A DNA stretch of 64,000 nucleotides from an uncultured Gammaproteobacteria bacterium (lineage in GTDB: Bacteria > Pseudomonadota > Gammaproteobacteria > PS1 > Pseudothioglobaceae): positions 124,001 to 188,000 of the forward strand of contig CABXIU010000001.1 of assembly GCA_902512305.1 (NCBI GenBank), written 5' to 3'. Numbering within the stretch: the first letter of the stretch is position 1; each line of letters opens with the position of its first letter. Both the position numbers and the translations under genes were made by a program. The notes below the pieces were generated by a model, which worked only from the letters and a program-made list of their open reading frames with translations, did not search any database and was not told the origin of the DNA. Positions 21,125 to 25,768 of the stretch are shown here, piece by piece.

Positions 21125-22345
21125 TTATCTTCCCTGGATGGCCATTTTTTTATTAACATAGTTCAGCAATATGGATATAAATAGTGATATTACTAGATAA
21201 ACTAGCATCGCCATCGCTAGAATTTCAACTGCCTGCCCTACTTGATTAAGAACTGTTCCACCAAAAGCGCTCATCAGCTCTGGATAGCCGATTGCAGTAG
21301 CAAGCGATGAGTTCTTTGTAAGATTTAAATACTGGTTAATTGTTGGCGGAATTGCTACTCTTAAGGCTTGAGGTAAAATGATTAATTTTAGTGATTGGGT
21401 TGGCGTTAGTCCAATTGCAGCAGCAGCTTCTTTTTGTCCTTTATCAACAGCCTCAATGCCTGATCTGATTGCTTCTGCAATATATGTTGCGGTATAAACG
21501 CTTAGGGCAAAGGTTAACGCTAAAAACTCCGGAACAACGTTCATTCCGCCTTTTAAGTTAAATTTACCAAGGACAGAGATATCAAACTGTAATGGTGACC
21601 CAAGAACTAAAAAAACTATAATCGGCAGTCCAATAATAAAGGCAATTGAGAAAGGCCATGTGCTTGTATGCACTCCAGTTAACTCATGCTTTTTCTTATA
21701 GAATTTTTTAACAAAATAGGAAGCTATTAGTCCAACCAATAGCGCTAATACAACAACCATAAAGCCATCTTCTGGGATTGGTTTTGGCAAATAAAGTCCT
21801 CTTTGGTTAAGGAACATGATGTCAAAGAAAGCGAAGCTTTGTTTTGGATGTGGAAAAATGTTGATAAATAAGTTGTACCAAAAAAGAATTTGTAAGAGGA
21901 TAGGTATATTTCTAAAGAGTTCTATATAGCCTCCTGCAAGTTTTGCTACTAGGTAGTTGTTTGAGAGTCTAGCGATACCAATTAAGAGACCAATCAGAGT
22001 AGACAGAATTATTCCAATAAATGCTACAACAAGAGTATTTATTAATCCTACATAAAAAACACTGAAATTCGAAGATTCAGGCGTGTAGTCAACTAAATAA
22101 TTACCAAGAAAGGGCAAAATATCAAATCCAGCCCTATTTTTTAGAAATGTGAATCCAGTGTTGATCCCTCTTTCTTCGATATTGTGGAACAAGTTTCCAA
22201 TTGCAGTATAAAAAAGCCCTACTACAAGGATAAAGGTAACAACTTGGAAGAAAAATGCTCTTGCCTCGTTGTTATAAAGCAGGTCGCGAAAGTTTAACCC
22301 TCTATGTTGCGATTTACCAATAGAGTCGAGGATTAGTTTCTTCAT
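21125..22345 (-). CDS. aapQ: General L-amino acid ABC transporter permease (AapQ-like)
   Basis: EAIRSGIEAVDKGQKEAAAAIGLTPTQSLKLIILPQALR EAA motif. Confidence 0.9.
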   Translation of the reverse strand: MKKLILDSIGKSQHRGLNFRDLLYNNEARAFFFQVVTFILVVGLFYTAIGNLFHNIEERGINTGFTFLKNRAGFDILPFLGNYLVDYTPESSNFSVFYVGLINTLVVAFIGIILSTLIGLLIGIARLSNNYLVAKLAGGYIELFRNIPILLQILFWYNLFINIFPHPKQSFAFFDIMFLNQRGLYLPKPIPEDGFMVVVLALLVGLIASYFVKKFYKKKHELTGVHTSTWPFSIAFIIGLPIIVFLVLGSPLQFDISVLGKFNLKGGMNVVPEFLALTFALSVYTATYIAEAIRSGIEAVDKGQKEAAAAIGLTPTQSLKLIILPQALRVAIPPTINQYLNLTKNSSLATAIGYPELMSAFGGTVLNQVGQAVEILAMAMLVYLVISLFISILLNYVNKKMAIQGR

Positions 22346-22390
22346 AAATGATTATAAATATTAAAAATTTTGAGAGGTCTTAAAAAGAAT

Positions 22391-22428
22391 AAAAAAAAAC
22401 CAGCCTGCTAAAGTATAGCAGGCTGGTT
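22391..22428 (-). terminator. Intrinsic terminator/attenuator between aapJ and aapQ
   Basis: Perfect 13-bp stem AACCAGCCTGCTA/TAGCAGGCTGGTT, 5-nt loop, run of T on the minus strand directly 3'. Confidence 0.9.
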
Positions 22429-22450
22429 AGGGTTCTAACTAGATAATTGC

Positions 22451-23458
22451 TTATCTAAATGGAGGTGAATATAGAATTCCACCATCTGTCCATAGTGCAT
22501 TCACACCACGGGCAATACCAATCGGCGTATTAAGGCCAATATTACGCTCAAAGCTTTCAGAGTAGTTACCTACTTGCTTAACGATTTGGTAAGTCCAGTC
22601 TGGAGTCAGACCAACATACTCATGAGTACTACCAGAGCGACCCATTAGGCGCTCACGCTCAGGGTTGTTAGAAACATCGTCAACAGTTGCACTAGTAACA
22701 CCAAGCTCTTCAGCAGTAATCATAGCATTAAGAGACCATCTTACAATGTTGAACCACTGATCGTCACCTTGACGAACAACAGGACCTAAAGGCTCTTTAG
22801 AGATGATTTCTGGAAGTACGACGTGCTCTGAAGGATCATTCGCAGCAGCACGCATTGAATATAGTCCAGAAGCATCAGTTGTTAATACATCACAACGTCC
22901 AGAGTCATAGTTAGTTAGAGTTTGAGCATTTGTATCAGATACAACTGAGTTGTAGTCGATACCATTTGCTTTACCCCAGTCTGCCAGGTTCAATTCAGTA
23001 GTTGTACCTGCTTGAATACATACAGCAGCACCACTTAGTTCCATAGCGCTAGATACACCTAGTGAAGACTTAACCATGAAGCCTTGGCCATCATAGTAGT
23101 TAACACCAGCAAAGTTCAATCCTAAAGAAGCGTCACGAGTGATTGTCCATGTAGTGTTTCTTGACAACATATCGATTTCGCCAGATTGAAGTGCAGTGAA
23201 TCTTTCTTTAGCTGTTAAAGGTACAAATTTAACCTTTTGTGCGTCGCCAAGAGTTGCAGCAGCAACAGCACGACATACGTCAACGTCTACACCAGTCCAG
23301 TTACCTGCAGAGTCTGCAGCTGAAAATCCAGCTAGACCTTTAGATACACCACAAGAAACGTGACCTTTTGCTTGAACATCGCTTAAAGTGGAGGCTTGTA
23401 CACCAAGTGCACCAACGACCAGCAACGTAGCAGCAGACAATTTTAATAATTGTTTCAT
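22451..23458 (-). CDS. aapJ: General L-amino acid ABC transporter substrate-binding protein (AapJ-like)
   Basis: MKQLLKLSAATLLVVGALGVQA signal peptide; internal ATG at 23458 preceded by AAGGAG preferred over the ORF-track start at 23500. Confidence 0.92.
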   Translation of the reverse strand: MKQLLKLSAATLLVVGALGVQASTLSDVQAKGHVSCGVSKGLAGFSAADSAGNWTGVDVDVCRAVAAATLGDAQKVKFVPLTAKERFTALQSGEIDMLSRNTTWTITRDASLGLNFAGVNYYDGQGFMVKSSLGVSSAMELSGAAVCIQAGTTTELNLADWGKANGIDYNSVVSDTNAQTLTNYDSGRCDVLTTDASGLYSMRAAANDPSEHVVLPEIISKEPLGPVVRQGDDQWFNIVRWSLNAMITAEELGVTSATVDDVSNNPERERLMGRSGSTHEYVGLTPDWTYQIVKQVGNYSESFERNIGLNTPIGIARGVNALWTDGGILYSPPFR

Positions 23459-23826
23459 ATATATCTCCTTAATGAGTTTCAAAGTATAACAATCCTTCAC
23501 AATTGAATGAGGATTAGAGAAATTTTATCACTAGTTAAAGAATAAATACCAATAATTGATAAAAAAAAATTTAAATCAATTCAACCATTAATGTGCAGTT
23601 ATTCCTATTAATTCAATAATAAAGGCATATTTAAAGTATTAAAAGTTGAATTTAATTCAATTTAATTTTATCGATTAAATATACAAATTCGTTTAATTAT
23701 TGGATCATATTTTTAAAATACTATCAAATTATCCTAGTTTATTAAATATAAATATTACTCTTAAAATCAATGAGTTATATCTATATTAGTTATTTAATAC
23801 ATCTATTTTTCGTTGTTTTTTATGTA

Positions 23827-23867
23827 AACTATAGTTATTTTTTACCTATAGTGGTATAAAATAACTA
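23827..23867. promoter_or_regulatory. Cluster of palindromic elements upstream of HTH-nadE (possible operator)
   Basis: 10-bp palindrome AACTATAGTT (23827-23836); ACTATAG/CTATAGT arms 23828-23834 and 23846-23852; TAGTTAT/ATAACTA arms 23832-23838 and 23861-23867. Confidence 0.4.
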
Positions 23868-23893
23868 ATATTGAGTATAATTAACTACGATTT

Positions 23894-25768
23894 ATGAATG
23901 TCAAAACAACTGAATACCTTGCTATGGTGCGTAATAAAACGGGTTTTTCGGACTATAAAATAGCTAAAGAATATGATATAAATCAATCAAATTTGAGTAA
24001 ATATAGCTCTGGAAAGGCTGCTTTAAGTGAAACACATGCCTGGTTATTCGCTAATATTCTTGATGTTGATCCTGCTGAGGTTGTTGCAAACACTAAGTTA
24101 GAGCATGCAATTAATACTGGAAATAATTCAAAGGCTAAATTTTGGCAGGAACAACTAAATAAAATTTTTTCTGAAACTCAGCCAATTAATATTCAAATCG
24201 CTCAAATTAACCCTATTGTTGGTGATATTCAAACTAATGCACAAAAAATTCTTGATTTAACAAATGAGGCAAATGAAATTGGAGTTCACCTTATTGCTTT
24301 TCCTGAGCTCGCACTAACTGGTTATCCACCTGAGGATCTTTTGTTCCGTGATGGTTTTATTAGTCAAATTCAAGATGAGATTGATAATTTATGTAATTTG
24401 ATACCATCATCCATCTCAGTTTTGTTTGGTGCACCTAATAAAATTGATGATGCGCTTTTTAATAGCGCCTATCTTATTCAAAATAATAGAATTCAAAGCA
24501 TCTATAACAAGCAAGAACTACCCAATTATGGTGTTTTTGATGAAAAGCGTTATTTTTCTTCTGGTACTGACCCATTAATTTTTCAATGTCAAAATACTAA
24601 AATTGGTGTTTTAATTTGTGAAGATCAATGGATAGATGGCCCAATAAATAGACTATGTCAATCTAATATTGATATGGTGATTTCACTCAATGCCTCTCCT
24701 TTTCAACTGGATAAGCAGGATGAGCGTATCAATATTTGTAAAAAGTATGCGTTGGAATTTGATATTTCCTTTATTTACATTAATATGGTTGGTGGTCAAG
24801 ATGAGGTAGTGTTTGATGGAAATTCTTTTGTTGTTGATAATAAAGGTGAATTAACTCTGCAATTTCCAGCATTTGAAGAATTGTGCTTAATTCATAGCGA
24901 ATTAAGACCATTAGAGAATATATTGAGTGATGAATCAACTATTTACTCAGCTATCGTTTTGGCAACCAGAGACTACATTCAAAAGAATTCTTTTGGTGGA
25001 GCATTAATTGGCCTTTCTGGAGGTATTGATTCTGCTTTAACCCTTGCAATAGCTGTTGATGCGATTGGTGCGGATAATGTGCATGCAGTAATGATGCCTT
25101 ATGAATACACCTCTGATATGAGTCTGACTGACTCAAAGCTTCAAGCTAAAACTCAAGGTGTTGAATTTTCAATTATTGATATTCACTCTATGATTGATTC
25201 ATTTAATGCCTCTTTGGCTGATTCATTTGAAAATACTTCTGTTGATACTACCGAAGAAAATATTCAATCTCGTGTTCGAGGCACCCTTCTAATGGCTTTA
25301 TCAAATAAATATCACAAAATTGTTCTTGCCACTGGCAATAAATCTGAAATGGCTGTTGGTTATGCAACACTCTATGGAGATATGTGTGGAGGCTTTGCGC
25401 CATTAAAAGATATTTCTAAAACTATGGTATATCGGCTTTCTAAGTATCGCAATACGTTGTCAGAAGTGATACCTGATCGAGTTATAAGCAGACCTCCTTC
25501 GGCTGAGTTAGCGCCTAATCAGGTTGATCAAGACTCACTACCTCCATATGATATCCTAGATGACATTTTAATGAGATTTGTTGAAATGAAGGAATCTGTA
25601 GGCCAGATTATTGAAAACGGCCACAGTCCTGAAAATGTTAATAAAATCACTTCTTTAATATTAAAGAATGAGTATAAACGAAGACAATCAGCTCCAGGTC
25701 CAAAAATCAGTTCTAATGCTTTTGGTAAGGAAAGAAGATACCCTATGACTTCAAAATTTAGACCTTAA
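23894..25768 (+). CDS. nadE: Glutamine-dependent NAD+ synthetase with N-terminal helix-turn-helix extension
   Basis: Residues ~97-624: nitrilase domain (AQINPIVGDI, FPELALTGYPPEDLL, LICEDQW) plus synthetase domain (GLSGGIDSAL, ATGNKSEMAVGYATLYGDM). Residues ~1-93: Cro/C1-like HTH (DYKIAKEYDINQSNLSKYSSGKAALSETHAWLFANILDVDPAEV). Confidence 0.95.
   Translation: MNVKTTEYLAMVRNKTGFSDYKIAKEYDINQSNLSKYSSGKAALSETHAWLFANILDVDPAEVVANTKLEHAINTGNNSKAKFWQEQLNKIFSETQPINIQIAQINPIVGDIQTNAQKILDLTNEANEIGVHLIAFPELALTGYPPEDLLFRDGFISQIQDEIDNLCNLIPSSISVLFGAPNKIDDALFNSAYLIQNNRIQSIYNKQELPNYGVFDEKRYFSSGTDPLIFQCQNTKIGVLICEDQWIDGPINRLCQSNIDMVISLNASPFQLDKQDERINICKKYALEFDISFIYINMVGGQDEVVFDGNSFVVDNKGELTLQFPAFEELCLIHSELRPLENILSDESTIYSAIVLATRDYIQKNSFGGALIGLSGGIDSALTLAIAVDAIGADNVHAVMMPYEYTSDMSLTDSKLQAKTQGVEFSIIDIHSMIDSFNASLADSFENTSVDTTEENIQSRVRGTLLMALSNKYHKIVLATGNKSEMAVGYATLYGDMCGGFAPLKDISKTMVYRLSKYRNTLSEVIPDRVISRPPSAELAPNQVDQDSLPPYDILDDILMRFVEMKESVGQIIENGHSPENVNKITSLILKNEYKRRQSAPGPKISSNAFGKERRYPMTSKFRP

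Follow-up and report, generated by a model that had tools for sequence, protein, structure and literature searches.

BirA carries a winged helix-turn-helix (HTH) domain on a cofactor-related ligase, and its repression is coupled to metabolite binding. It represses the bio genes, with autoregulation only in the Desulfovibrionales (PMC5343134). The trifunctional enzyme PutA, of proline catabolism, has an N-terminal DNA-binding domain of the ribbon-helix-helix type and represses its own gene (PMC5293562), as well as putP. In NadR (TIGR01526), an HTH is fused to the NMN adenylyltransferase and ribosylnicotinamide kinase domains. The control of NAD synthesis in bacteria without NadR, NrtR, NiaR or NadQ is a largely open question. 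Among glutamine-dependent NAD synthetases (NadE-Gln), those of type 2 (NadE2-Gln) are regulated post-translationally by NAD+ and PII, and NAD+ acts as an allosteric inhibitor of the dimeric NadE-Gln enzymes (PMC7196632). A survey of NAD synthetase arrangements covers only the synthetase and glutaminase components, and a DNA-binding domain does not appear in its main text (PMC3376133). Fusions of an enzyme with a regulator are thus known from PutA, NadR and BirA; HTH-NadE itself is not described in the open-access literature searched.

In the 64-kb stretch of DNA analysed here (the window), a Cro/C1-type HTH is fused to the N-terminus of NadE. The arrangement resembles NadR in joining an HTH to enzyme domains of NAD metabolism, and PutA in the N-terminal position of the DNA-binding domain. 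However, the fused enzyme is NadE, of the last step, the HTH is neither winged nor ribbon-helix-helix, and there is apparently one target, the gene itself. In our main reading, with a probability of about 0.8 based on sequence analysis, the fusion protein works as an active glutamine-dependent NAD synthetase, probably as a dimer, and in addition is the repressor of nadE. HTH-NadE would, by analogy, best be explained as a "trigger enzyme" of the kind seen in PutA, NadR and BirA. The features of the gene are as follows.

23894..25768, + strand: HTH-NadE fusion gene, 624 amino acids plus stop, with an ATG start and no internal stop
23894..24172, + strand: N-terminal Cro/C1-type HTH domain, residues 1-93 (Pfam HTH_3, phrog_4441, AlphaFold2)
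23984..24010, + strand: recognition helix, residues 31-39, QSNLSKYSS (alignment and AlphaFold2 model)
24173..24187, + strand: linker of about 5 residues (94-98) connecting the final HTH helix to the first glutaminase strand (AlphaFold2)
24197..24883, + strand: CN_hydrolase (glutaminase) domain, residues 102-330 (Pfam profile and alignment)
24944..25687, + strand: NAD_synthase domain, residues 351-598, with SGGIDS at 375-380 (Pfam profile and alignment)

By sequence, residues 96-623 make up a complete NadE-Gln enzyme. The NCBIfam NAD+ synthase model NF010588 matches this segment with 730 bits (cut-off 479), and both PF02540 and PF00795 score above their family cut-offs. Residues E138, K206 and C242, which we take to be the catalytic Glu-Lys-Cys triad of the glutaminase domain, are invariant in the NadE alignment, and the SGGIDS motif is in place. 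A Foldseek search of the PDB returned only NadE and amidohydrolases, the closest solved structures being the NadE-Gln enzymes 5kha and 4f4h, which differ from the fusion in having no HTH. The protein is probably of the dimeric type, judging from its length and these closest solved relatives.

The Pfam family HTH_3 (PF01381) matches residues 10-62 with an E value of 5.4e-6, above the gathering score, when residues 1-96 are searched alone; in the full-length protein the score is 22.9 bits against a cut-off of 23. All 20 of the fusion-family members searched have an HTH_3 match at E <= 1. The phage families phrog_4441 (E 2e-13) and phrog_638 (E 1.2e-10) match residues 4-90 and have the same roughly 90-residue HTH with a tail helix, although they are small stand-alone regulators with no fused enzyme. 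The segment INQSNLSKY (residues 29-37), in the region of the recognition helix, is invariant across 49 aligned NadE proteins. Structure prediction, suggested in the earlier note as a check on the HTH, gives six helices in this domain (4-16, 20-26, 31-39, 46-56, 60-74 and 78-93), with the first strand of the glutaminase domain at residue 100. This AlphaFold2 model is a monomer computed from the 49 aligned sequences and is of moderate confidence (mean pLDDT 78.4, and about 78-90 across residues 1-90); it was used in place of a single-sequence model (mean pLDDT 37), which was discarded. Foldseek with the HTH alone gave no useful match.

These results bear out the earlier note in its account of one uninterrupted reading frame with a Cro/C1-like HTH followed by a canonical NadE. 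Its likening of the HTH to DUF3693 fails, as this family has no Pfam match at E <= 1; the nearest named families are HTH_3 and the phage HTH families. Its observation that no Met lies between the domains is also correct. The only in-frame start-type codons in the HTH past the initiator are M11, V12 and the TTG at L34, so translation from the domain junction, which would give the enzyme alone, is not expected. A misannotated start site is thereby ruled out, there being no start codon where the HTH meets the enzyme.

The extension is present in the NadE of close relatives, another check that had been proposed: each of the order's 49 near-complete genomes searched has the fusion, and 11 genera are represented. 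The records include Candidatus Pseudothioglobus, Thioglobus, Ruthia, Ruthturnera, Thiodubiliella and Bathymodiolus symbionts, and thus mussel and clam symbionts; the family is presumably that named Thioglobaceae or SUP05. The SUP05/Pseudothioglobus group consists of marine sulfur-oxidising bacteria that are abundant in the ocean and at vents. A class-wide sample of 369 genomes includes four family members; the fusion is absent from the other 365, which have only two weak stand-alone matches to the HTH. In a phylum-wide sample of 399 genomes, no fusion was found outside the window's own genome, and two further stand-alone HTHs matched. Alignments of outgroup NadE proteins start at about residue 82-102 of the fusion query, and therefore these proteins lack the HTH. 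An annotation or assembly artefact behind the fusion is exceedingly improbable, as the same frame and boundary are kept across the order, in dozens of independent genomes that include single-contig chromosomes; neither chance nor misassembly can account for this, and nothing in the window gene points to an artefact. The distribution is most simply read as the outcome of one ancestral fusion.

Two records of Thiodubiliella depart from the common form of the gene. The open frame of NadE is shorter in Thiodubiliella endoseptemdiera (552 amino acids; L075 / L126). In a Thiodubiliella metagenome-assembled genome (G080; L212 / L139), an insert breaks the reading frame of the HTH. The letters of this insert resemble what we assume to be a sequencing adapter, and a related inverted copy is located upstream in the same contig. 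The break is therefore probably an assembly artefact, and G080 was dropped as a natural HTH knockout.

The stand-alone relatives of the HTH are small phage-type proteins, and one of them (L215) adjoins an apparent phage replication protein. We infer that the HTH was captured from a phage. Scans of viral contigs with the HTH and two stand-alone relatives confirmed nothing, and a tblastn search of phage records gave just one weak, CI-like match to the HTH. A stand-alone homologue of 84 residues, about 50% identical to the HTH of NadE, is encoded in a second genus (G071; L067:1501-1755). Its surroundings, upstream of a ribonucleotide-reductase-like ORF, are poor in genes, and it has the appearance of a phage-type regulator in decay. 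It is preceded by one dyad of 11 bits and some repeats of similar look, which were disregarded as too weak.

The region upstream of nadE contains an array of near-palindromes. An expectation-maximization motif search of 59 upstream regions was run from three seeds, two of which converged on the same symmetric 15-bp dyad, with the consensus AGKTAWWWWWTAMCT (AGKTA-W5-TAMCT). The following elements are located in the window.

23765..23777, + strand: IHF-type site AATCAATGAGTTA (WATCAANNNNTTR), upstream of the operators
23788..23802: putative operator A, AGTTATTTAATACAT, one mismatch to the dyad
23833..23847: putative operator B, AGTTATTTTTTACCT, exact match to the dyad
23852..23866: putative operator C, TGGTATAAAATAACT, one mismatch, 19 bp centre-to-centre from B
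23866..23871, + strand: putative -10 element TAATAT, directly past operator C (from position and conservation)

Only four places in the window match the dyad with no more than one mismatch, and operators A, B and C account for three of them. When the upstream DNA of 22 loci of the genus is aligned, a single block stands out as strongly conserved, TAGTTATTTTTTACC-TATAGT-GGTATAAAATAACTA, and the core operator pair is 90% identical over 16 loci of the genus, compared to 46-53% for the flanks. Other genera have several copies of the same kind of near-palindrome upstream of nadE, and the spacings are mostly 19-20 or 35-36 bp (19, 36, 20 and 35 bp being the commonest). Dyads of at least 11 bits number 2.8 on average per 200 bp upstream of nadE and 0.085 in shuffled sequences, the count at nadE being partly circular because regions upstream of nadE supplied both the weight matrix and the profile. 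No such circularity affects the shuffled, outgroup and genome-wide controls. Upstream of 17 nadE genes without the HTH, in regions that are less AT-rich, there are no dyads at this threshold.

The dyads sit between and beside the likely promoter elements and overlap the likely promoter. The sequence TATAAT is found at the place of the putative -10 element in many loci of other genera; a generic promoter scan of the region, in which this element is not listed, was uninformative. The best-conserved dyads are inside and beside the likely promoter, a typical position for a repressor, which makes it quite unlikely that HTH-NadE activates nadE through distal sites, possibly with IHF bending the DNA. 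Activation would fit the presence of a further operator some 45 bp upstream of the core pair, together with the conserved IHF-type site. This site is found in 47 of 67 upstream regions of the family, mostly at the same position, with a rate of 0.025 in shuffled sequences, and it may shape the promoter complex.

Under our preferred reading, of repression, the phage-type HTH domains of NadE would bind the 15-bp dyads at the nadE promoter, with the dimeric enzyme presenting two HTHs to one dyad. Binding to neighbouring dyads would probably be cooperative, because these are about two helical turns apart. The bound NadE would then block RNA polymerase, so that a high level of NadE, most likely bound to NAD+, would lower nadE transcription. 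The occupancy of the enzyme by NAD+ or substrate may modulate DNA binding; the sensing of NAD, NaAD or glutamine, as put forward in the earlier note, is plausible because NAD+ allosterically inhibits dimeric NadE-Gln enzymes (PMC7196632).

The specificity of the array was assessed with a double-operator profile searched genome-wide in 20 genomes. The region upstream of nadE is the top match in 17 of them (E 1e-9 to 1.6e-4), and the next-best places in these genomes have E values of about 0.005 or worse. In the reduced clam symbiont G061, the only one of four 1.0-Mb clam symbionts included in this search, the nadE site reaches only E 0.54 and there is no convincing nadE operator; its 1,022,154-bp chromosome is, we assume, that of Ca. 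Vesicomyosocius okutanii. In G085, where nadE is not the top match either, the gene begins at base 114 of the record, so that the DNA upstream of it is cut off. In G088, the nadE site (E 0.011) is second to an unrelated place (E 0.0055) with no NAD genes around it.

NadR, NrtR and NadQ each regulate several NAD genes, and by this token HTH-NadE might also control nadBAC or transporter genes. Such a wider regulon is improbable, however, as the double-operator profile has no recurrent second target in the 20 genomes, although targets with single sites are possible. Exact single dyads are no commoner genome-wide than a reversed-pattern control, and therefore no regulon is proposed from single sites. 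The suggestion in the earlier note that NadE regulates its own or other promoters is thus upheld, indirectly, for its own promoter, by the dyad array and the rank of nadE in the 17 genomes, but not for others, where no second strong target appears.

Neither of the known NAD regulators looked for takes on this role. NrtR (winged HTH PF21906) has no match in nine genomes, including that of the window, and full NadR was not found in the nine, which have only sub-threshold partial matches to TIGR01526. The window protein itself has no match to NadR at E <= 1. The nadA gene is present in all nine genomes.

Purifying selection acts on the HTH no less strongly than on the enzyme, except in the most reduced clam symbionts. 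The average pN/pS values for the HTH and the enzyme are 0.124 and 0.247 in the genus of the window, 0.124 and 0.125 in the Ruthia group, and 0.224 and 0.272 in other genera. In comparison, four clam symbionts with 1.0-Mb genomes (L068-L071) have values of 0.94 and 0.10, a correlation from six pairwise comparisons within one lineage. The HTH thus drifts almost neutrally in these symbionts while the enzyme is conserved; the domain must nonetheless stay in frame there, because the start codon lies within it. The four symbionts keep one or two dyads of at least 11 bits, so that their operators have decayed only in part, and the Ruthia group is not far above this. The drift of the HTH together with weaker operators, while the enzyme stays constrained, is what an HTH with a regulatory rather than a catalytic function would be expected to show. 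These symbionts offer a loss-of-function series made by nature: the regulatory domain is decaying, and the enzyme attached to it is still under selection.

HTH folds are sometimes reused for protein contacts. The HTH of NadE might accordingly have ceased to bind DNA and now modulate the enzyme through protein-protein contacts or dimerisation, for instance as a substitute for the PII control that NadE-Gln is under in other bacteria (PMC7196632). The dyads would then belong to another transcription factor, and an unlinked regulator could be the binder. This has a low probability in our estimate: the recognition helix, with its INQSNLSKY segment, is invariant in the 49 sequences, dyad arrays go with nadE genes that bear the HTH, and the HTH is near-neutral where the operators weaken. 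As the enzyme is still constrained there, it does not need the HTH. Returning to autorepression, we give about an even chance to the fuller account, in which a phage HTH was captured once by the SUP05/Thioglobaceae ancestor. This would have made a one-gene NAD homeostat of the last enzyme of NAD synthesis: a single dimeric protein would produce NAD+, respond to it allosterically and, through the operator array, repress no promoter but that of nadE, with the loop drifting away in the most reduced clam symbionts.

The upstream neighbour of nadE varies among genomes. In the window, an amino-acid ABC transporter operon of the aapJ/aapQ type (21125-23500) is divergent from nadE, and it is possible that this operon is linked to glutamine supply. 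The neighbour is also a divergent aapJ in G031, whereas it is hemH in G029, and the operator array stays with nadE despite this change.
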